This document shows, in pieces, positions 3,326-17,412 of a stretch of 33,612 bases of DNA. Every line of letters starts with the position of its first letter. The stretch's first letter is position 1. The stretch comes from Deltaproteobacteria bacterium (lineage in GTDB: Bacteria; Myxococcota_A; UBA9042), in NCBI GenBank assembly GCA_016218865.1, contig JACRCU010000455.1, positions 1 through 33,612 of the forward strand, read 5' to 3'. A program made the translations under genes and the position numbers. Below the pieces are notes generated by a model. It saw only the letters and a list, made by a program, of their open reading frames with translations. It was not told the DNA's origin and searched no databases.

Positions 3326-5323
3326 ATGGCTCATCGAATTCTAGGACTGGACATCGGCACCCGGGCGATTCGCTTGGCGATTGCCGACAAGTCGCTGCGG
3401 CAGACCGCGCTGACCGGCTGGGACGAGGAGCCCGTGGCGGCGCCGGATCCCGAGCAGCCGGCGCACCACCGGCACCCGCTGTTTTCGCCCGAACAGGTGG
3501 CGGCGGTGCAGACCCTGCTGCTGCGCAACCAGCGGCCCGACGACGTGGTGGCGGTGGCGATGCCGGCCACTTACGTGATGCACCGCGTGCTGGCGTTCCC
3601 GTTCCGCGACGATCAGGCCATCGCCGAAGCGGTGGGTTTTGAACTTGAAAATCATATTCCCACGCCGATCAGCGACGTGGTCGTCGACTTCGTGCGGCTG
3701 GGCGAGAAAGAGGGCCAGACCGAGGTGTTGGCGCTGGCGGCGCCGCGCGACATCGTCGTCAAACACATCGACGCCTATAAGGAAATGGGCATCGAAGCTC
3801 GCCGCCTGGGCCTGCAGTCGCTGGCCTACGCGCACCTGGTGCGGAAGCTCCCCGACGCCAAAGAGGGCGTCACGCTCCTCATCGACGTGGGCACGCGCTC
3901 GTCCGAAGTGCTGGTGTGCCAAGATGGCAAAGCCCAGATGCTGCGCAGCTTTGCGGTGGGTGGCCAGACCATCGCCGACCTGTTCGGCAGCCTGGTCCAG
4001 AGCGAACTGCAGCCCGCCGACCTGCTGCGCGGCCACGCCGTGCTGCTGCCCGACGAAGCGCTGGAGACCGACCAAGAGCGCGGTCTGGCCCTGGCGACCC
4101 GCCAAGCCGTCCAGCCGCTGCTGCGCGAGCTGCGCCTGACGCTGGCCAACTGGCTGCGCCGCTCGCACAAGCGGCCCGACCGCGTGTTGCTGACCGGCTG
4201 GCTGGCCGAGCTGGGCGGGATTCATGAGTTCATCGAGCGGTCCCTGGACGTGCCGGTCAAGGCCATCGAGCTGGGCAACATGCCCGACGTCCGCCTGGCC
4301 AGTGCCCACGACCTGGGCGACCGCGGCGCACTGGCGGTGGCGCTGGCGCTCGCAGCGGCCGACACCGAGAGCGGCGGCGACGTCGACTTCCGCCAGGGCG
4401 AGTTGGCCTACGAGGGCGACTTCAAGGTGCTCCGCCAGCGCTTGCCGCAGCTGGTGGCGTTCATCGTGGTGGCGCTGTGCCTGCTGGGCATCCGCGCCAG
4501 CCTGAACTACCGCGCGCTGGTGATCGAGCAGGAACAGCAACTCGCGATTCTGCAAGCGCTGTCCAAGCAGCTGACCGGTAAGGCCTCGACCGACTTCGAG
4601 ACCGTGCGCAAGGAGCTGGCGCGCGAGCCGGCGGTGGACATGGCCGCGCTCTACCCGGACATCAGCGCGTTCAAGGTGCTGGAAGACGTGTCGGGCATCC
4701 TGGACAAGGTGACCGAGCCGCCGGACTTCAAGCCGCCGGGCGGGCCCGAAGAGGAAGCCGCGCCGCAGCCGCCGCCGGGAATGGTGGTGCCGCCCGGGGT
4801 TGCGGGCATTCCGGCCCACCGCCTGCCCACCGTAGACGCTGTACGCAAGCCGCCGCGGGGAGCGGGGCACGGTCGCGGCGGCTCGGCAACGGGCGACGAC
4901 TCGGCCACTGAGGCGGCACCGTCGCCGAGTGTGCCTGGGGGCGCGCCGCCCGCCGGCCCTGGCAACCCCGACCCCAGCGCCAAGGACGAGGGCAAGGGCC
5001 TTGATCCGGCTGCACCTTTTACCGGGCACAAGGTCGAGCTGGCGGCGGTGCAGATCGAGCGCGGTCGCGCCACCCTGCGCGGCGATGCCGACACCCAGGA
5101 CGCGATCCTCGCGCTGCAGCAGGCCGTGGATGCCCACAAGTGCTTCTCGAAAGTGAAGTCGAGCTCGGATCGCATCACCTTCGAGCGCCACCGCGACTGG
5201 TTCAAATTCACGCTGGAATTCGAGATCGCCTGCCCCGTCGAAGCCGACAAGGCCAAGAAGGACAAGGCGGCCAAGGCCGACGCCGAAGCGGACAAGGCCG
5301 ACGGTGAGGGGGACGAGAAATGA
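3326..5323 (+). CDS. gspL: Type II secretion inner-membrane platform protein GspL
   Basis: MAHRILGLDIGTRAIRLAIADKSL (actin-like PilM/GspL fold), single TM segment LVAFIVVALCLLGI, C-terminal periplasmic domain after a Pro/Gly-rich linker. ATG at 3326 chosen over the longer ORF. Confidence 0.85.
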   Translation: MAHRILGLDIGTRAIRLAIADKSLRQTALTGWDEEPVAAPDPEQPAHHRHPLFSPEQVAAVQTLLLRNQRPDDVVAVAMPATYVMHRVLAFPFRDDQAIAEAVGFELENHIPTPISDVVVDFVRLGEKEGQTEVLALAAPRDIVVKHIDAYKEMGIEARRLGLQSLAYAHLVRKLPDAKEGVTLLIDVGTRSSEVLVCQDGKAQMLRSFAVGGQTIADLFGSLVQSELQPADLLRGHAVLLPDEALETDQERGLALATRQAVQPLLRELRLTLANWLRRSHKRPDRVLLTGWLAELGGIHEFIERSLDVPVKAIELGNMPDVRLASAHDLGDRGALAVALALAAADTESGGDVDFRQGELAYEGDFKVLRQRLPQLVAFIVVALCLLGIRASLNYRALVIEQEQQLAILQALSKQLTGKASTDFETVRKELAREPAVDMAALYPDISAFKVLEDVSGILDKVTEPPDFKPPGGPEEEAAPQPPPGMVVPPGVAGIPAHRLPTVDAVRKPPRGAGHGRGGSATGDDSATEAAPSPSVPGGAPPAGPGNPDPSAKDEGKGLDPAAPFTGHKVELAAVQIERGRATLRGDADTQDAILALQQAVDAHKCFSKVKSSSDRITFERHRDWFKFTLEFEIACPVEADKAKKDKAAKADAEADKADGEGDEK

Positions 5324-5994
5324 GCCTGATGGCGTCGAAATTGGGCAGGATCGGCGCGGCCTTCGAGCGCATGAGCGATCGCGAGCGCAAGCTGGTGATG
5401 GGCGGTATCGCCATCATGACCCTGATCGGCCTGGTGCTGGTGGCGGTGCTGGTGTCGCGGCGGGTCAGCGCGCTGGAAGAGGAAGTGCAGGGCAACGAGG
5501 CGGCCTTGAAGGACATCTCGGCCGCGGCGCCCCGCTACCTGGCCCTGCGCGAAGAAGAAAAGAGCGTCGCCGAACAACTGGACCGCGCCGCCAAAGAGCC
5601 GCTGCAGGCCACGGTGCTGGCGATCGCCAAGGAGATCAAGTACCAGTCCAAGGATGCCGACGGCGTGGAAGCCGAGACGCGCCTGGCGGATGTGATCAAA
5701 TTTGCCAATGCTTCGGATATCTTGGCCGAGCTGACCACCAAGGCGGCCAAGAAGGTGCAAAAGACCAAGACCAAGAAGAAGAAGGGCGCCAAAGAGGTGT
5801 TCTTGTCGACCATCGACGCGGTGTTCCAGAATGTGCCGGACGATGCGGTGCTGCGCTTCCTGTCCAAGCTGGAGACGCACCCCGAGCCGATGTTCGGCCT
5901 GACGGTGGAGATCACCCGCACCGGGCCCACGCGCGACCAGATGCAGGCGACGATCAAGATTGGGCAATTCCGGTACGGGCAGCTCGAGGAGTAG
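5320..5994 (+). CDS. gspM: Type II secretion protein GspM
   Basis: ATGA overlap with gspL; short cytoplasmic N-terminus, one TM (LVMGGIAIMTLIGLVLVAVLV), coiled coil plus small C-terminal domain; position between gspL and gspN. Confidence 0.8.
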   Translation: MSLMASKLGRIGAAFERMSDRERKLVMGGIAIMTLIGLVLVAVLVSRRVSALEEEVQGNEAALKDISAAAPRYLALREEEKSVAEQLDRAAKEPLQATVLAIAKEIKYQSKDADGVEAETRLADVIKFANASDILAELTTKAAKKVQKTKTKKKKGAKEVFLSTIDAVFQNVPDDAVLRFLSKLETHPEPMFGLTVEITRTGPTRDQMQATIKIGQFRYGQLEE

Positions 5995-8305: not shown

Positions 8306-9135
8306 TGGCCACAGGCGCCGACCACCGCCAGCATGGAACGTTGCCGCGGGGGCCGCTGGCGGCGGAGTCTGCCTTGGACACCTGGCAAGTGCTGGCCGCC
8401 GTGGCCGCGGCACCGCGCAAGCGGCCGGGGCCGGGCGACGACGCGGTAGGGCACAGAACCGTCGACACGGACACGGGATTGTGGCTAGTGGCGGCTTGCG
8501 CCGACGGTGCAGGATCGGCCGCGTTGGGTCGGCGCGGCGCTGAGGTGGCGGTGCGGCAGGCGCTGGCGTGGCTGTCTACCCGGCTCAAGCGCAGCCGGCG
8601 TGCGGAGCTACCCCTGGCTGGACTGCAGCACGCCGTGGATCGCGCCCTGGCGGCCGAAGCGCGGCGCCGCGGGGTGACGGTGCGCGACCTGGCCACCACC
8701 TTGGTGTGCGCGGTGGCCGGACCGCAGCGGACCTGGCTGGCGCAGGTGGGCGACGGCGCCGCGGTGGTGCAGACCGACGAAACCCCGCACTGGCAAATGC
8801 CGATCTGGCCGGACCGCGGCGAGCACGTCAACGAGACCCAGTTTGCCGGCGACCCGCGCTCGCAGTGGCGTTGCGCCGAGTTGCCGCGGGCCCACGCGCT
8901 GGCGCTGCTGAGCGACGGGCTGCTGCCAGTGGCGGTCGATCAAGCGGCACGCCAGCCGTTCCAGCCGTTCTTCACGGGCTTTGCTGGCGAGCTGGCTCGT
9001 CGCGATGTGGACGAATTGCGCCCGGCATTCGAGGCATTTCTTACCTCGCCGCGGCTGGCCGAGCGCACCGACGACGACGTGAGCCTGGTGGTGGCCGTGC
9101 GCCGAGCGCAAGCAGGGGCCGATGTACCTGCATGA
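8305..9135 (+). CDS. PP2C-family protein phosphatase (YegK/TerY-P triad type)
   Basis: 1-nt TGATG overlap with the vWA gene; PP2C motifs ACADGAGSA, QVGDGAAVV, ALLSDGL, TDDDVSLVVA. Confidence 0.88.
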   Translation: MATGADHRQHGTLPRGPLAAESALDTWQVLAAVAAAPRKRPGPGDDAVGHRTVDTDTGLWLVAACADGAGSAALGRRGAEVAVRQALAWLSTRLKRSRRAELPLAGLQHAVDRALAAEARRRGVTVRDLATTLVCAVAGPQRTWLAQVGDGAAVVQTDETPHWQMPIWPDRGEHVNETQFAGDPRSQWRCAELPRAHALALLSDGLLPVAVDQAARQPFQPFFTGFAGELARRDVDELRPAFEAFLTSPRLAERTDDDVSLVVAVRRAQAGADVPA

Positions 9136-11074
9136 TGGCCGCCAGCAAGTCGAGATCGCGGACGAGCTGGGGCGCGGCGGCGAAGGCGTGGTCTATGCGG
9201 TGCGCGGCCAGTCCGACCGTGTCGCCAAGCTGTACAACGCGGCGCCGGACACCGAGGCCTCGGAGAAGCTGACCTACCTGGTGGCGCTGGGCGAACTGGC
9301 GCCCGAACTCACCCAGGTGAGCGCGTGGCCCTTGGCCCTGCTGCGCGACGGCGACGGCGCGGTGCGCGGCTTTGTCATGCAGCGCCTGGACGGGCCGCAG
9401 CCGCTCCACCACCTGTACAGTCCCGAGCAACGCAAGGTCCTGTTCCCCAAGGCGACTTGGCGCACACTCATCGAGGTCGCCGCCGACTGTGCGCGCCTGT
9501 TCGGCACCCTGCACGCCCGCGGCGTGGTGGTGGGCGACGTCAACGAGCGCAACGTGCTGGTCAATCCGGCCGGGCAGTTGGTGCTCGTCGACGCGGACTC
9601 GTTCCAGGTGCAGCAGGGCGACCGCGTGTTCGTGACCGGCGTAGGCGTGGTGGACTACACGCCGCCGGAGCTGCAGGGAAGCGACTTCCGGACGGCGGTG
9701 CGCACTCCCGACCACGACCGCTTTGGCCTCGCGGTGCTGCTGTTCAAGCTGCTGTTCATGGGCCGTCACCCGTTCTCGGGCGGCGCCGACGGCGATCTGG
9801 CGGCGGCGATCGCGGCCAAGCAGTACGACTACGGCGAGGTGGCCGAGCGACTGAAGCACCTGATTCCGCTGACCCTTCTGCCCAAGGCGCTGCAAGACCT
9901 GTTCGCCGCGGCCCTGACCGGCGAGGCCCGGCCGGCACCGCAGCAGTGGCAGACGCAGCTCGGCGCCTTTGCCGCGAGTCTGCAGGCGTGCCCCGACGAT
10001 CCGCTGCACGTGCTGCCGCCCGGACTGGTCCGCTGTCCGTGGTGCGCGATCGAGTCGCTGTTGCATTACGCGTACTTTGCGCGTCCCGATGGCGGCGCCT
10101 ACGCCTCGCTGTGGACGCCGCGCGAAGAGCAGCTGCAGAACTTGCGGCTGGCCCTGGCCGAGACGTGGGCGCCGCCGGATCCGACCGTGTTCTTGGTCCC
10201 GGCCGATCAGCCGGCGGCGGTGGCGGTGGCGCGGCGGGCGATGCGCATCCAAGTGCCCGTCGATCCGCGCAGTTGGTACTTGGGCGTTCTGGGCGGTCTG
10301 GCCGTGCTGGCCGGCTTGGCGCGACTGGCGGTGGTCGACGCCATCGACCGGGTGGTGCAATTGGCGGTGTGGGGCGGGGTGCTGGTATGGGCGGCGGCGC
10401 GCTGGCTGCGGTGGCGCTTCAAGCAGCCGTGGCTCCGCGACCTGGCCACGTTGCGCACACTGCTGGATCAGGTGGAGCACGCCGGCGACGCGTGGCGGGC
10501 CGAGGCCTACCAATTCCGCAGCCGCGACCGACAGTTGCTTCAGCGCTTTGGCCAGCTGGCGGCGCAGCACGAAGGGGTGGTGGCCTTCCGCACTGCCGAG
10601 CTAGAGCGGCTGACGTTCGACGCCGTGGACGAGAACATGCGCGCGGCGCTGCAGAAGATTCGCATCGAAGACGCCGAGTTGCCGCCCGCGGTGGGCGAGG
10701 CGCGCCGGCAGGCGCTGCGCATCCGCGGGTTGCTCACGGCGGCCGACGTGGACGAGCGGCAACTGCTGGGTCTGCCTGGGTTTACTCCGCAGGTGATCCA
10801 GGCCTTGGTCGAGTGGCGGCAGGCCCTGGAGGTGCGGCTGGGCGGGCGCAAGCGGCCGGCGGCGCGGCCCGAGCACCGCGCGGCCATCGACAACAACTGC
10901 CAGATCATGCAAGAGGAAATCGAGGCGCAGCTCGCCGAGGTGCTGCGGCTGCGGCAGCTGGCCAGCCACGAGGCGCGCGCGCAGCTGGAGGCGACCTACC
11001 GGCAGACCGAGCACGTGGTGGCAGTGCTGAAGCAGCACGCCGAGCGGTTGTTGTTGCGGTTGCGCGAGGGGTAG
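9122..11074 (+). CDS. YegI-like protein kinase with central TM pair and C-terminal helix-hairpin-helix region (COG4248-type)
   Basis: GRGGEGVVY glycine loop, VAKLYN Lys, VVVGDVNERNVLV catalytic loop, LVDADSFQ in the DFG position, CPWC half-knuckle, two TM segments, HhH-like LLGLPGFTPQVIQALVEWR. Overlaps the PP2C gene by 14 nt. Confidence 0.87.
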   Translation: MYLHDGRQQVEIADELGRGGEGVVYAVRGQSDRVAKLYNAAPDTEASEKLTYLVALGELAPELTQVSAWPLALLRDGDGAVRGFVMQRLDGPQPLHHLYSPEQRKVLFPKATWRTLIEVAADCARLFGTLHARGVVVGDVNERNVLVNPAGQLVLVDADSFQVQQGDRVFVTGVGVVDYTPPELQGSDFRTAVRTPDHDRFGLAVLLFKLLFMGRHPFSGGADGDLAAAIAAKQYDYGEVAERLKHLIPLTLLPKALQDLFAAALTGEARPAPQQWQTQLGAFAASLQACPDDPLHVLPPGLVRCPWCAIESLLHYAYFARPDGGAYASLWTPREEQLQNLRLALAETWAPPDPTVFLVPADQPAAVAVARRAMRIQVPVDPRSWYLGVLGGLAVLAGLARLAVVDAIDRVVQLAVWGGVLVWAAARWLRWRFKQPWLRDLATLRTLLDQVEHAGDAWRAEAYQFRSRDRQLLQRFGQLAAQHEGVVAFRTAELERLTFDAVDENMRAALQKIRIEDAELPPAVGEARRQALRIRGLLTAADVDERQLLGLPGFTPQVIQALVEWRQALEVRLGGRKRPAARPEHRAAIDNNCQIMQEEIEAQLAEVLRLRQLASHEARAQLEATYRQTEHVVAVLKQHAERLLLRLREG

Positions 11075-12189: not shown

Positions 12190-13509
12190 TTACGCCACGC
12201 CGCCGCCGCTCGGTAGCACGATGCGCGTCAGGTTGTCGGCCGCGCGGGTGCCGATGTGCAGGTCGTCTTCGATGCGCACGCCGCCGAAGGGCGCCAGGGC
12301 CTCGACCCGCTGCCAGTCGACCAGGTGGCCGTGCGGACCCTGGCGCAGTGGCTCCAGCAGACCCGGGATGAAGTACACGCCCGGCTCGATGGTGAAGACC
12401 TGACCCGACTCAATGATGCGGGTGTTGCGCAGCCACGGATTGTCGGCGCGCGGGGCGATGCGGGCGCAGCCGACGTCGTGGGTCTGCAGGCCCAGCGAGT
12501 GCCCCAAACCGTGCGGATAGAAAGCAAAGGTGACGTCCTTGGCCACCGCCTCCTCGGGCCCGGCGCGCACCACCCCCAGCTCGCGCAGCAGCTGGCCGAT
12601 GCGCAGGTGCGACTCGTCGTGCAGGTCCTGGTAGGGGCGGCCGACCACCGCGCCGTCGCACAGCTGCTGCTGCAGGCGCTCGACGCCGCTGACCAGCGCC
12701 AAGAACAGGTCCTTGCTGGCGCCGTGGCCGCGCACCCAGGTACGGGTGATGTCGGCGTGGTAGCCCATGCAAGTGGCGCCGGCGTCAAGCAAAAGCGACG
12801 TCGCGTCGGTGTGGTGGGTGCCGCGGCCGTAGGCGACGTGGTGCAGCACCGCGGCGTGTTCACCCAGGGCCACGATGTTCTTGTACGGCGTCTCGGGGTC
12901 GTCCTGCGAGGTCGCCAGCAGGTAGCGCAGGTGCAACTCCAGCTCGATGTTGCCGCCCGCGGCAAACGCCCGCCGCAGCTCGTCGTGGCCGGCCGCCGCG
13001 CGCGCATTGGCCTCGGCGATGCAGGCGACCTCGTAAGCGGTCTTGTGCACGCGCAATTCGTCCAACTCGCGCTCCAGCTCGGCGTGGCGCTGCAGGCGGT
13101 CGTCCGGCGGCGCATCGCGGCTGTCGGCCACCCAGGCGAGCTTGCCGGCCGGCAGCAGCGGCGCCAGGTCGGCAAGACTGCGAATCACCTGGATGTCAAA
13201 GTGTTTTTCGAACAAGCGGTGCTCCGGCGCCGGCGGCCCCTCCCAGAAGCTGCCGGGCTGGCACCAGCACAGCAGCGGCCGCTGACCGGGCGCCAGCCGC
13301 AACACGCAGTCGGCGGCCTGCAGCGGTAGCCAGTGGCCAAAGTGCGGCGTCACCCGCAGCGACCAGCTCTGGTCATCGTGGCTGCTGCGCGAACGCGGCG
13401 CGCCGCTGTGGATCAGCACGGCGTCGCACTGGTGGTGCTGCAGGATCGCGGCGTACTTGGCCTGCAAGTGTTCGATATGATTGTGGTATAGCTGATCCAG
13501 CTGCGTCAT
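12190..13509 (-). CDS. pepQ: Xaa-Pro dipeptidase, M24 metallopeptidase
   Basis: Starts MTQLDQLYHNHIEHLQAKYAAILQHHQCDAVLIHSGAPRS; metal-ligand motifs LLLDAGATCMGYHADITRTW, HGLGHSLGLQTHDVG, FTIEPGVYFIPGLL, FGGVRIEDDLHI match PepQ. Confidence 0.92.
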   Translation of the reverse strand: MTQLDQLYHNHIEHLQAKYAAILQHHQCDAVLIHSGAPRSRSSHDDQSWSLRVTPHFGHWLPLQAADCVLRLAPGQRPLLCWCQPGSFWEGPPAPEHRLFEKHFDIQVIRSLADLAPLLPAGKLAWVADSRDAPPDDRLQRHAELERELDELRVHKTAYEVACIAEANARAAAGHDELRRAFAAGGNIELELHLRYLLATSQDDPETPYKNIVALGEHAAVLHHVAYGRGTHHTDATSLLLDAGATCMGYHADITRTWVRGHGASKDLFLALVSGVERLQQQLCDGAVVGRPYQDLHDESHLRIGQLLRELGVVRAGPEEAVAKDVTFAFYPHGLGHSLGLQTHDVGCARIAPRADNPWLRNTRIIESGQVFTIEPGVYFIPGLLEPLRQGPHGHLVDWQRVEALAPFGGVRIEDDLHIGTRAADNLTRIVLPSGGGVA

Positions 13510-13542
13510 GGATGGCTCGGGGGCCAGCTCGGCCCAGGCCCG

Positions 13543-13612
13543 GCAGTGTCGCACCGCGCCCCTCCTTTGCCAACGGCCGCTTGCCAAGCGCAGCAGTGCC
13601 GGCCGACACTGC
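13543..13612. promoter_or_regulatory. 9-bp inverted repeat GCAGTGTCG...CGACACTGC in a divergent intergenic region
   Basis: Perfect arms at 13543-13551 and 13604-13612, between pepQ (-) and the hypothetical gene (+). Confidence 0.4.
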
Positions 13613-13638
13613 GGCCCCGGAGTGCCGCTGGAGGTCGC

Positions 13639-14253
13639 ATGCAGCCCGAGTTCCTGCCCGATCACCGCGCGCTGGTGGCCGACGTGCTGGCCCGCAGCAA
13701 CCGCGAGCTGTGGAGAAACCTCTGCGAGGGCGCGGATTTCGCCGTGGACGACCTGGCCGGCTGGCAGTACCAGGGCCTGGCGTTGGGTCTGCCGCGCTGG
13801 GTCGAGCGCTTGACCTGGAAGGTGTTCGTCAAGGCCTTTGCCCACGACGCCCGCGGCGTGCACGGCTGGAATGTGCGGATGCAGCAGGGCGGCCCGCAAT
13901 TGTGCTTGCCCGGCGCGGACCTGCAGCCCACCCGTCGCACTTCCACACTTGGCGGTGCCGACCCGCGCACCTTTGGTCACTATCGGGTGCTGCCGATGGC
14001 GGAGTGGCCGCGCAACTTGCCGTCCGGCCTTGGCAAAGTCGGCGCGATGCTGGACTACGGCACCGGCGCCAACCCCTGGCTGGATCCGATGCGACCGATG
14101 CGCGACCCGCTGGTAGCCCTGCAACCAGGTGATCCTACGTGCCTGCTGGGCTGGTCCTACGTGGAATTGGGGCCGCTGCGGCTGCCGACCCCGAGCTATT
14201 TCCTGTTGGTGCGCTGGCGGCCCGTCGATTTCGTGCCGGCGCATGTGGCTTGA
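13639..14253 (+). CDS. Hypothetical protein (about 204 aa)
   Basis: ATG at 13639 preceded by ggaggtcgc; product MQPEFLPDHRALVADVLARSNRELWRNLCEG... ends just before the PFK-2/FBPase-2 gene. No family recognised. Confidence 0.65.
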   Translation: MQPEFLPDHRALVADVLARSNRELWRNLCEGADFAVDDLAGWQYQGLALGLPRWVERLTWKVFVKAFAHDARGVHGWNVRMQQGGPQLCLPGADLQPTRRTSTLGGADPRTFGHYRVLPMAEWPRNLPSGLGKVGAMLDYGTGANPWLDPMRPMRDPLVALQPGDPTCLLGWSYVELGPLRLPTPSYFLLVRWRPVDFVPAHVA

Positions 14254-14286
14254 CGGCGGCGCCGTGGTACGCTGACGCGCGAGATC

Positions 14287-15573
14287 ATGCAGCGAGGTTC
14301 GGCGATGCGCTTCAATCCGTTCACCCCCGAGGCGACGCGGCTCGTGCTTGTGCTGGTGGGGTTGCCGGCGCGCGGCAAGACCTTCATCGGGCGCAAGCTG
14401 GCCCGGTACTTGAACTGGCTGGGGTTTTCGGCGCGGGTCTTCAACATCGGCGACTACCGCCGCCAGCGGCTGGGCACCCACCACCGCCACGACTTCTTTG
14501 ATCCCAGCAACGTCGAAGGCAACCGCCCGCGCAACGAGTTGGCGGCCCTGGCGCTCGACGACTTGATGAAATGGATGGCGACGGGCGGCCAGGTCGGCAT
14601 CTACGACGCCACCAACACGACCCACTTGCGCCGCCAGCAGCTCCACGAGCGCTGCACCGAGGCGGGGCTCGACGTGGTGTTCGTCGAGTCGGTGTGCGAA
14701 GACCCGGCGATTGTCGAGGCGAATATCCGCGAGACCAAGCTGACCTCGCCGGACTACGAAGGCAACGACCCCGACGAGGCCGCCCGCGATTTCCGCGCCC
14801 GCATCGACCACTACACCCGCGCCTACGAACCGCTGAGCGAAGACGACTTCTCGTACATCAAGCTCATCGACGTCGGCCGCGTCATCGTCATGCACGCCAT
14901 CCACGGCTATGTACCGGGCAAGCTCGTCAATTTCTTGATGAACCTGCACCTGGTGCGCCGGCCGATCTGGCTGACCCGCCACGGCGAGTCGCAGTTCAAC
15001 GTCCACGGCCGCATCGGCGGCGATTCGTCGCTGACCCCGCAGGGCAAGGCCTATGCGGCGGCGCTGGCGCACTTTGTCCGCGAACACGCGATTCGGCCGC
15101 CGATTGTCTGGACCAGCACGCTCAAGCGGACCATCGAGACCGCCAAGCCGCTGCAGGTGCCGTCGCTGCCGTGGCGCGCGCTGGACGAGATCGACGCCGG
15201 CATCTGCGACAACCTGACCTACACCGAGATTGCCGAGAAATTCCCCGAAGAATACAACGCCCGCCGCAAGGACAAGCTGAACTACCGCTACCCGCGCGGC
15301 GAGAGCTATACCGACGTGATCTTGCGTCTGGAGCCGGTGATCCTGGAGCTGGAGCGCGAGCGCGAGCCGGTGCTGGTCATCGGCCATCAGGCGGTTTTGC
15401 GGATGCTCTACGCCTACTTCATGGACCGCCGCCCCGAGGACGTGGTCAACATGGAGATTCCCATCCACACCGTCATCGAGCTCACCCCCGGGCCCTACGC
15501 CTTCGAGGAGCGGCGCTACTGCCTGGATATCGGCGCCGATCCGTCGACCTGGGGCGCGGCGATGGACGATTAG
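14287..15573 (+). CDS. Bifunctional 6-phosphofructo-2-kinase/fructose-2,6-bisphosphatase
   Basis: Kinase half: GLPARGKT Walker A, FNIGDYRR, DATNTTHLRR, FVESVCEDPAIVEANI. Phosphatase half: LTRHGESQFNVHGRIGGDSSLTPQG, DEIDAGICDNLTYTEIAEKFPEEY, YRYPRGESYTDVI, VIGHQAVLRMLYAYF. Alternative ATG at 14305 has a better RBS. Confidence 0.93.
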   Translation: MQRGSAMRFNPFTPEATRLVLVLVGLPARGKTFIGRKLARYLNWLGFSARVFNIGDYRRQRLGTHHRHDFFDPSNVEGNRPRNELAALALDDLMKWMATGGQVGIYDATNTTHLRRQQLHERCTEAGLDVVFVESVCEDPAIVEANIRETKLTSPDYEGNDPDEAARDFRARIDHYTRAYEPLSEDDFSYIKLIDVGRVIVMHAIHGYVPGKLVNFLMNLHLVRRPIWLTRHGESQFNVHGRIGGDSSLTPQGKAYAAALAHFVREHAIRPPIVWTSTLKRTIETAKPLQVPSLPWRALDEIDAGICDNLTYTEIAEKFPEEYNARRKDKLNYRYPRGESYTDVILRLEPVILELEREREPVLVIGHQAVLRMLYAYFMDRRPEDVVNMEIPIHTVIELTPGPYAFEERRYCLDIGADPSTWGAAMDD

Positions 15574-15675
15574 CTGCAGGTCGGGCCGCCGCTGGGTGTG
15601 ACGCGGCGGTGACGCAGGCCGCCGCCCCCTGGTCGGTCGACGGCCCATTGCTCCGTAATTTCAAACAAGATCTTG

Positions 15676-15780
15676 GGGAATTCACGAATTTGCGTGGGTT
15701 GGCCAAATGGCCCATCTTCACCAAGACGGCCGCCCGGCCGCATGTCCCGTCCCGCGCAGAATTCTTCCCCAGTGTTCCTT
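15676..15780. promoter_or_regulatory. Probable pit promoter/operator region with short palindromes
   Basis: 220-bp, relatively AT-rich intergenic region; TTGGCCAA at 15699-15706 within GGCCA-AA-TGGCC; partner GGGGAATTC and GAATTCTTCCCC motifs. Confidence 0.3.
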
Positions 15781-15793
15781 GCTTGGGTGTCCC

Positions 15794-16783
15794 ATGCTTG
15801 TGTCGCTCATCGTCCTCATCGTTGCGGCACTCGTCTTCGACTTCCTGAACGGTTTTCACGACGCGTCGAACATCGTCGCCACCATGATTTCGTCGCGGGC
15901 TGTCTCGCCGCGCAAGGCCTTGGCGCTGGTGACGATTGGCGAGGTGAGCGGGCCGTTCCTGTTCGGCGTGGCGGTGGCCACCACCATCGGTTCCGGGGTC
16001 GTCGAGAAGGGCGCCGTCACGATGCCCGTGCTCATCGCCGCGCTGTGTGGCGCCATCACTTGGAACGTGATCACCTGGTTCTTTGGCATCCCGTCCAGTT
16101 CGTCGCACGCGCTGGTCGGCGGCATCATCGGCGCGGTGGTGGTCGAGCACGGCTTTTCGGCGCTGATGTGGAGCGGCATCAGCAAGATCTTGCTCGCGCT
16201 GTTCATTTCGCCGCCGCTGGGCCTGCTGGGCGGCTTCATCATCCAGCGCGCCATCCTCATCACCCTGAAGGCCACCGATGCGCGGCCGGGCACCAACTGG
16301 ATCTTCCGCAACGGCCAGCTCTTCACCAGCGCGTGGCTGGCGCTGTCGCACGGCAGCAACGACGCGCAAAAAACCATGGGTATCATCACCATGGGTCTGC
16401 TCGCCACCGGGCAGATCAGCGAGTTTGCCGTGCCCACGTGGGTGATCGCCCTGTCGGCCGCCGCCATTGGCCTCGGCACCGCCACCGGCGGCTGGCGCCT
16501 GATCAAGACTCTGGGCTACGGCTTCTACAAGGTGTGGCCGATCCACGCCTTTACCACCCAGCTGTCGTCGGCGGTGGTCATCTTGTCGGCGGCCTTGCTG
16601 GGCGGCCCGGTCAGCACCACCCAAGTGGTGTCCAGCGCTATCGTGGGCGTCGGCGCCTCGGAGCGCGTCCAAAAGGTGCGCTGGACGGTGGCCGGGCAGA
16701 TCGTGATTGCCTGGGTGTTGACGATTCCCTCGGCGAGCCTGGTGGCGGCCGGGGTGTACCTGCTGGTGCGGAGGTTTTCATGA
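15794..16783 (+). CDS. pit: Inorganic phosphate transporter, PiT family
   Basis: DFLNGFHDASNIVATMISSRAVSPRKAL and GSNDAQKTMGIITMGL, the two PiT signature repeats; multiple TM segments. Confidence 0.93.
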   Translation: MLVSLIVLIVAALVFDFLNGFHDASNIVATMISSRAVSPRKALALVTIGEVSGPFLFGVAVATTIGSGVVEKGAVTMPVLIAALCGAITWNVITWFFGIPSSSSHALVGGIIGAVVVEHGFSALMWSGISKILLALFISPPLGLLGGFIIQRAILITLKATDARPGTNWIFRNGQLFTSAWLALSHGSNDAQKTMGIITMGLLATGQISEFAVPTWVIALSAAAIGLGTATGGWRLIKTLGYGFYKVWPIHAFTTQLSSAVVILSAALLGGPVSTTQVVSSAIVGVGASERVQKVRWTVAGQIVIAWVLTIPSASLVAAGVYLLVRRFS

Positions 16784-17412
16784 GCTGGCTGAGCAACCCG
16801 CTGAAGCCCACCAAGGACCGCTTCATGGAGCGGCTGATCCGCCAGGCGCAGGCCTGCCAAGACGGCTTGGGCGGGCTGGTGGAGTACGTCAAGGACCCCG
16901 ATCCGGCGGTGGCGGCGCTGGTCCACCAAGCCGAACAGCGCGGCGACGAAGAGCGGCGGCTGCTCATCGACGAACTGAACCACACCTTCGTGACGCCGAT
17001 CGACCGCGAGGACCTGTTCGCGCTGTCGCGGGCCGTGGACGACGTGCTGGACTACGCCCTGTCGACCGTGGAGGAAATGGCCCTGTTCGGCGTGCCCTCC
17101 AACCCGTACCTCATCGACATGGCGCAGGCGCTGCACCAGGCCGGCCGCGAGTTGCACGCCTCGCTGGAGCTGCTGGTCGACCACCCGGCCGTGGCCAACG
17201 AACACGCAATTGCCGCCAAACGCCTGGAAAATCAGGTCGAAGCGGTCTACCGCCAGGCGCTGGCGGCGCTGTTCAACCAGAAGGTCCAGAGCTTTGAAGT
17301 GATGCTGGATATTCTGAAGACGCGCGAGGTCTACCGGCACCTGTCGAACGCCGCCGACCGGGCCGACACTGCTGGCAATATCATCACCGACATCATTATG
17401 AAGATCATGTGA
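16780..17412 (+). CDS. DUF47 / PhoU-like PiT accessory protein
   Basis: ATGA overlap with pit; helical protein with FVTPIDREDLFALSRAVDDVLDYA, typical of DUF47. Confidence 0.92.
   Translation: MSWLSNPLKPTKDRFMERLIRQAQACQDGLGGLVEYVKDPDPAVAALVHQAEQRGDEERRLLIDELNHTFVTPIDREDLFALSRAVDDVLDYALSTVEEMALFGVPSNPYLIDMAQALHQAGRELHASLELLVDHPAVANEHAIAAKRLENQVEAVYRQALAALFNQKVQSFEVMLDILKTREVYRHLSNAADRADTAGNIITDIIMKIM

Follow-up and report, generated by a model that had tools for sequence, protein, structure and literature searches.

PFK-2/FBPase-2 makes and destroys fructose-2,6-bisphosphate (F2,6BP) in animals, fungi and plants, and textbooks treat F2,6BP as an essentially eukaryotic signal. In eukaryotes, class I FBPase is the type of FBPase that F2,6BP inhibits. 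F2,6BP control of PFK was described as eukaryote-specific as late as 2026 (PMC12873801), and a passage of PMC9721465, citing Rider et al. (2004), names Desulfovibrio desulfuricans as the one exception to an absence of F2,6BP in bacteria. No characterised bacterial PFK-2/FBPase-2 was found in the open-licence papers searched. The protein analyzed here belongs to this known family, and Pfam 6PF2K already takes in bacterial members. Since the literature holds F2,6BP control to be eukaryote-specific and F2,6BP to be nearly absent from bacteria, the surprising part is the phylum-wide, FBPase-linked picture that we report.

The gene, its start and its neighbourhood

The window (the whole stretch of DNA that was analyzed, 33,612 nt) lies in a bin of 5.35 Mb, distributed over 576 contigs and 82% complete. 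The relatives of the host genome are Myxococcales metagenome bins, and the host is myxobacterium-like. The gene had been placed at 14287-15573 in the earlier note, and a 428-aa open reading frame is indeed present there on the + strand, but its start is better assigned to ATG 14305, because a sister species (protein 94% identical) has CCT where the window has ATG 14287, and retains ATG 14305 and the GAGG site ahead of it. Similarity to the window protein also begins near ATG 14305 in other same-genus relatives, and residues 1-9 of the 428-aa form were predicted with pLDDT <50 by AlphaFold. ATG 14305 is most likely the true start, and the gene then spans 14305-15573 (422 aa). The features of the locus are:

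13639..14253, +, upstream ORF, 204 aa, no known family, judged not a partner
14294..14297, +, GAGG ribosome-binding-like site, 7 nt 5′ of ATG 14305, retained in the sister species
14305..15573, +, predicted PFK-2/FBPase-2 gene, revised start, 422 aa from ATG 14305
14329..14952, +, PFK-2 kinase domain (Pfam 6PF2K, profile positions 10-221 of 223)
14359..14382, +, Walker A GLPARGKT, ATP binding (aa 25-32; K31 invariant in 80/80 bacterial proteins)
14605..14622, +, DATNTT catalytic/F6P loop with liver Asp130 and Thr132 (aa 107-112; D107 and T109 invariant, 80/80)
14965..15516, +, FBPase-2 domain, histidine phosphatase fold (Pfam, PDB alignment)
14977..14991, +, RHGES with the phospho-accepting histidine, liver His258 (aa 231-235; R231 and H232 invariant, 80/80)
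15187..15201, +, EIDAG with catalytic Glu327 (aa 301-305; E301 invariant, 80/80)
15385..15396, +, HQAV, second catalytic histidine (His392) and Gln393 (H367 invariant, 80/80; Gln in 61/80)

The upstream ORF had been proposed as a partner of the enzyme, to be checked by its linkage to the gene. It had no match in Pfam or NCBIfam. Divergence from the sister copy was of the coding type (34% at third positions, 13-14% at the others), and that copy is broken by a TGG to TGA stop and a deletion. The ORF was absent beside the enzyme gene in other same-genus genomes. Because it occurs only in the nearest sister, and is broken there, neither partnership nor steady linkage held up and the candidate was rejected. 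Among 81 loci, no neighbour was conserved across families, with synteny at the genus or family level only, and no operon or regulator link to the enzyme gene was detected.

Directly downstream (15707-17412) lie a Pit-type phosphate transporter and then a PhoU-like DUF47 protein, syntenic in the nearest sister (L002), not in L003. Upstream and divergent (12193-13509, -), a PepQ-like M24 metallopeptidase adjoins the enzyme gene in several genomes of the window's family, f1 (L003, L052, L111). On the strand opposite the enzyme gene, a 1152-aa ORF (12190-15648, -) extends across that gene; outside the M24 peptidase it appears to be an artefact of G+C richness. At 9122-11074 (+), the window encodes a protein, conserved at 51% in L003, whose Ser/Thr kinase domain is borderline (32.1 bits for Pfam Pkinase, cut-off 31.7).

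Domains, residues and predicted structure

Two Pfam domains were recognised in the window protein, 6PF2K (aa 15-222, E 8.5e-76) and, behind it, His_Phos_1 (aa 227-409, E 5.2e-40). Both domains were full length, in the eukaryotic order and with their motifs present, including NVHGRIGGDS at aa 238-247, as expected for the complete two-domain PFK-2/FBPase-2 that the earlier note had described. The best PDB match was human PFKFB3 across both domains (E 2.2e-125, ∼48% identity in the multiple alignment), and the phosphatase half was 54% identical to the rat liver enzyme. Letters were read from PDB alignments, and we take the roles of the checked rat liver and PFKFB3 residues to be those in ATP, F6P, phosphohistidine and 6-phosphate pocket functions. 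The window protein keeps K47, T48, R98, D124, T126, R132, K168, R189 and Y193 (PFKFB3 numbers), and R257, H258, N264, R307, E327, Y338, R352, K356, Y367, H392, Q393 and R397 (liver numbers). All substrate residues checked on the alignment were present, so no missing residue speaks against the assignment. A TIGR03162 score of 91 bits (cut-off 163) and scores below the NCBIfam cut-offs for CobC, PspA, Gpm and others were obtained; a stand-alone histidine phosphatase of the CobC/TIGAR type was rejected, since a kinase domain is fused and the family cut-off was not reached.

We compared 80 distinct bacterial proteins, and each of them had the two domains together with the core catalytic residues. 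On the kinase side, the Walker Lys, Asp130, Thr132, Lys174 and Arg195 (liver numbers) were present in 80/80 proteins and Arg104 in 73/80. On the phosphatase side, Arg257, His258, Arg307, Glu327 and His392, together with the 6-phosphate pocket (Tyr338, Arg352, Lys356, Tyr367 and Arg397), were invariant (80/80). GHQAV (aa 366-370) had been singled out because mammalian enzymes have CHQAV. The glycine is present but unremarkable: the position ahead of the invariant His is variable, with Ala in 54, Gly in 18, Ser in 6 and Thr in 2 of the 80 proteins.

At position 307 the rat liver enzyme has Arg and PFKFB3 has Ser (PDB alignment), and this Ser is one cause of the kinase/phosphatase imbalance of PFKFB3. 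The kinase activity of PFKFB3 exceeds its phosphatase activity ∼740:1 (PMC6937325, PMC5617549). All 80 bacterial proteins have Arg307, which would lead us to expect both activities. At least one checked site varied in 27/80 proteins, mainly R98 (Leu in 7/80) or Q393 (Arg, Asn, His or Leu in 19/80), so that kinetics need not be alike in all. Leu in place of Arg98 (liver Arg104), an F6P contact, was found in L041, L048, L056, L060 and L098 (family f18) and in L074 and L075 (f39); common to two separate families, it may mark a changed F6P affinity or substrate. Family f17 (L099-L102, L104-L106 and L109) had Arg for Gln393 in 8/8 proteins, and Asn or Glu for kinase Cys160; by these residues f17 is a putative phosphatase-side variant subgroup.

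A structure prediction, proposed in the earlier note, agreed with this assignment. The AlphaFold model (pLDDT 92, pTM 0.89), whose input alignment consisted of 61 proteins, all from genomes of the present survey, was of low confidence at two tips only. In a Foldseek search against the PDB, ranks 1-28 were all PFKFBs. Human heart PFKFB2 (5htk_B) superimposed at 1.9 Å (TM 0.91/0.93), and for the phosphatase half the deviation from 1tip, the rat liver domain, was 1.0 Å. Similarity to other branch-1 histidine phosphatases was far weaker. The residues and the predicted fold together suggest that the protein is, very probably, an intact PFK-2/FBPase-2 enzyme by identity.

Distribution in Myxococcota

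The survey covered Myxococcota (379 genomes), Cyanobacteriota (194) and the phylum of L007 (17). The enzyme gene was found above the Pfam cut-off in 83/379 sampled Myxococcota genomes, about a fifth of the phylum. Eighty-one of these matches were strong (198-273 bits) and two were short fragments. The strong matches recovered were all full two-domain proteins except for one ended by a contig edge. Near-closed chromosomes of 10-13 Mb in one or two contigs (G178, G356 and G340) were among the carriers. A true copy was present in 0/194 Cyanobacteriota genomes (best match 35 bits), and the gene was present in 0/17 genomes of the phylum of L007.

Class I FBPase, GlpX and PFK in carriers

Class I FBPase (PF00316) was present in 76/83 carriers vs. 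126/296 non-carriers (Fisher p 6e-17), and in 65/68 vs. 88/191 when only genomes at least 90% complete were counted. Class II GlpX (PF03320) was present in 1/83 carriers vs. 66/296 non-carriers. The FBPase link persisted after stratification by family (Mantel-Haenszel odds ratio 9.1, CMH chi-square 9.98, p ∼0.002), with the within-family signal coming mostly from f21 (2/2 carriers vs. 1/28 non-carriers) and f39 (2/2 vs. 1/9); the co-occurrence is partly lineage-bound. The gene is thus phylum-wide and tracks class I FBPase, and the earlier note had missed both. Association with class I FBPase and near-absence of GlpX is the pattern that F2,6BP control predicts.

In the window's genus, class I FBPase was detected in 4/6 genomes, and the two genomes without it are 82% and 77% complete. 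None was detected in the bin that contains the window (the 82% complete one), and given the incompleteness of both genomes this absence is probably due to missing sequence. The sister's class I FBPase, the one same-genus FBPase examined, keeps Asn212, Arg243, Tyr244, Tyr264 and Lys274, which we take to be sugar-phosphate contacts for F1,6BP that would serve F2,6BP as well.

PFK was near-universal in the phylum (358/379 genomes), and therefore does not track the enzyme gene. The own genome encodes two PFKs. Both contain GGDG...PKTIDND and have the size of bacterial single-unit proteins; they do not show the duplicated architecture of animal and fungal PFKs, in which the F2,6BP site resides. A PPi-type PFK as special partner was rejected, since the donor site of the own PFKs has Gly rather than Asp. 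Both own PFKs may be read, with caution, as ATP-type enzymes; the caution is due because, according to a review, phosphate-donor specificity does not follow from the P(G/K)TIDXD motif by itself (PMC12203962).

Three PFKs from f39 genomes without the enzyme (L119, L120 and L124) have GGED in place of GGDG, which suggests that they may use PPi as donor; f39 carriers have class I FBPase. On the single-contig carrier chromosome G178 (L155), class I FBPase (728-1891) and PFK (4505-5776) share a strand and are separated by ∼2.6 kb, and the two genes are also near each other in G356. The pair in G178 is possibly a glycolysis/gluconeogenesis cluster apart from the PFK-2/FBPase-2 gene.

Proposed function

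The probable function, in our view, is an F2,6BP switch whose target is class I FBPase; catalysis is deduced on strong grounds, the target from distribution. The N-terminal P-loop kinase would convert F6P and ATP into F2,6BP, and the C-terminal histidine phosphatase would remove the 2-phosphate from F2,6BP via a phosphohistidine, so that the kinase/phosphatase balance would set the F2,6BP level. F2,6BP would most likely inhibit the host class I FBPase and thereby restrain gluconeogenesis when sugar is plentiful. An action of F2,6BP on PFK is possible, though without a positive sign here.

The enzyme could instead act on F6P and F2,6BP but serve a target other than FBPase (pyruvate kinase, an ATP-type PFK or some other enzyme), in which case the FBPase link would arise secondarily from lineage or from a gluconeogenic way of life. 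The F2,6BP target of trypanosomes is pyruvate kinase, the own genome offers two PFKs and its bin no FBPase I, and class I FBPase is also found in many non-carriers. Targets do vary among eukaryotes, the plant target being PPi-PFK (PMC12203962). Against these points, PFK is too widespread in the phylum to track the gene, and the own single-unit PFKs do not have the architecture that bears the F2,6BP site; we consider a non-FBPase target rather unlikely.

A repurposed sugar-phosphate kinase/phosphatase, with another substrate (e.g., sedoheptulose-7-phosphate) or a role in metabolite repair and no F2,6BP signalling, appears improbable. Some relatives do vary at F6P/F2,6BP contacts, namely at R98 and Q393, no neighbour links the gene to glycolysis, and the description of F2,6BP control of PFK as eukaryote-specific would fit. 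The window protein, however, keeps every checked F6P and F2,6BP contact, the 6-phosphate pocket is invariant across the bacterial proteins, and the class I FBPase association with near-absence of GlpX fits F2,6BP control.

Descent of the gene

On a tree of 399 columns, families mostly cohered (16 label changes vs. 52 in shuffles), and the window's family f1 formed a supported clade. This cohesion suggests an old gene, inherited mainly by vertical descent within the phylum and subject to losses or internal transfers. Mean identity was 47% between the bacterial proteins and the human protein and 54% among the bacterial proteins (minimum 43%). When the phosphatase tree was rooted by histidine phosphatases, outgroup branches ran to the upper limit of 10 and the human protein took no settled place; the full-length tree likewise gave it none, and the eukaryotic side of the trees consisted of mammalian sequences only.

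A mobile or viral origin was rejected: there was no phage match and no viral contig, and plasmids had plain histidine phosphatases only. Contamination of the metagenome bin by eukaryotic DNA, or a gene acquired very recently from a eukaryote, would suit the fragmented, incomplete bin and a human protein nearly as similar to the bacterial proteins as these are to one another, but is extremely improbable, as introns are absent, the local G+C (66%) fits the window (62-74%), the flanks consist of bacterial genes with synteny to an independent bin, families form clades and near-closed chromosomes carry the gene, which refutes contamination for the phylum.

It is doubtful, in our judgement, that Myxococcota possess a complete F2,6BP switch, directed at class I FBPase and old in the phylum, and that the eukaryotic PFK-2/FBPase-2 descended from that lineage instead of being fused in an early eukaryote.

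Comparison with known systems

About one in five Myxococcota genomes encodes a predicted intact enzyme, linked to the class of FBPase on which F2,6BP acts as inhibitor. This makes an F2,6BP circuit in bacteria directly testable, and the bacterial PFK-2/FBPase-2 set is material on where the eukaryotic enzyme arose. The Desulfovibrio desulfuricans case is a metabolite report from another lineage. Branch-1 histidine phosphatases (CobC, PhoE/YhfR, TIGAR and phosphoglycerate mutase) share the fold and the RHG/Glu/His set of the C-terminal half, but have no kinase domain and are structurally much more distant.

The closest system is the eukaryotic PFK-2/FBPase-2 (PFKFB1-4; EC 2.7.1.105/3.1.3.46), which the bacterial protein resembles in domain order, catalytic-core length, fold and all checked residues. 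Three differences stand out: (i) the bacterial protein has no N-terminal regulatory extension and its C-terminal tail is short and variable, so control by mammalian-type phosphorylation is not expected and we infer control by metabolites or expression; (ii) it keeps Arg307, unlike PFKFB3; and (iii) its host does not have the duplicated animal/fungal PFK-1.
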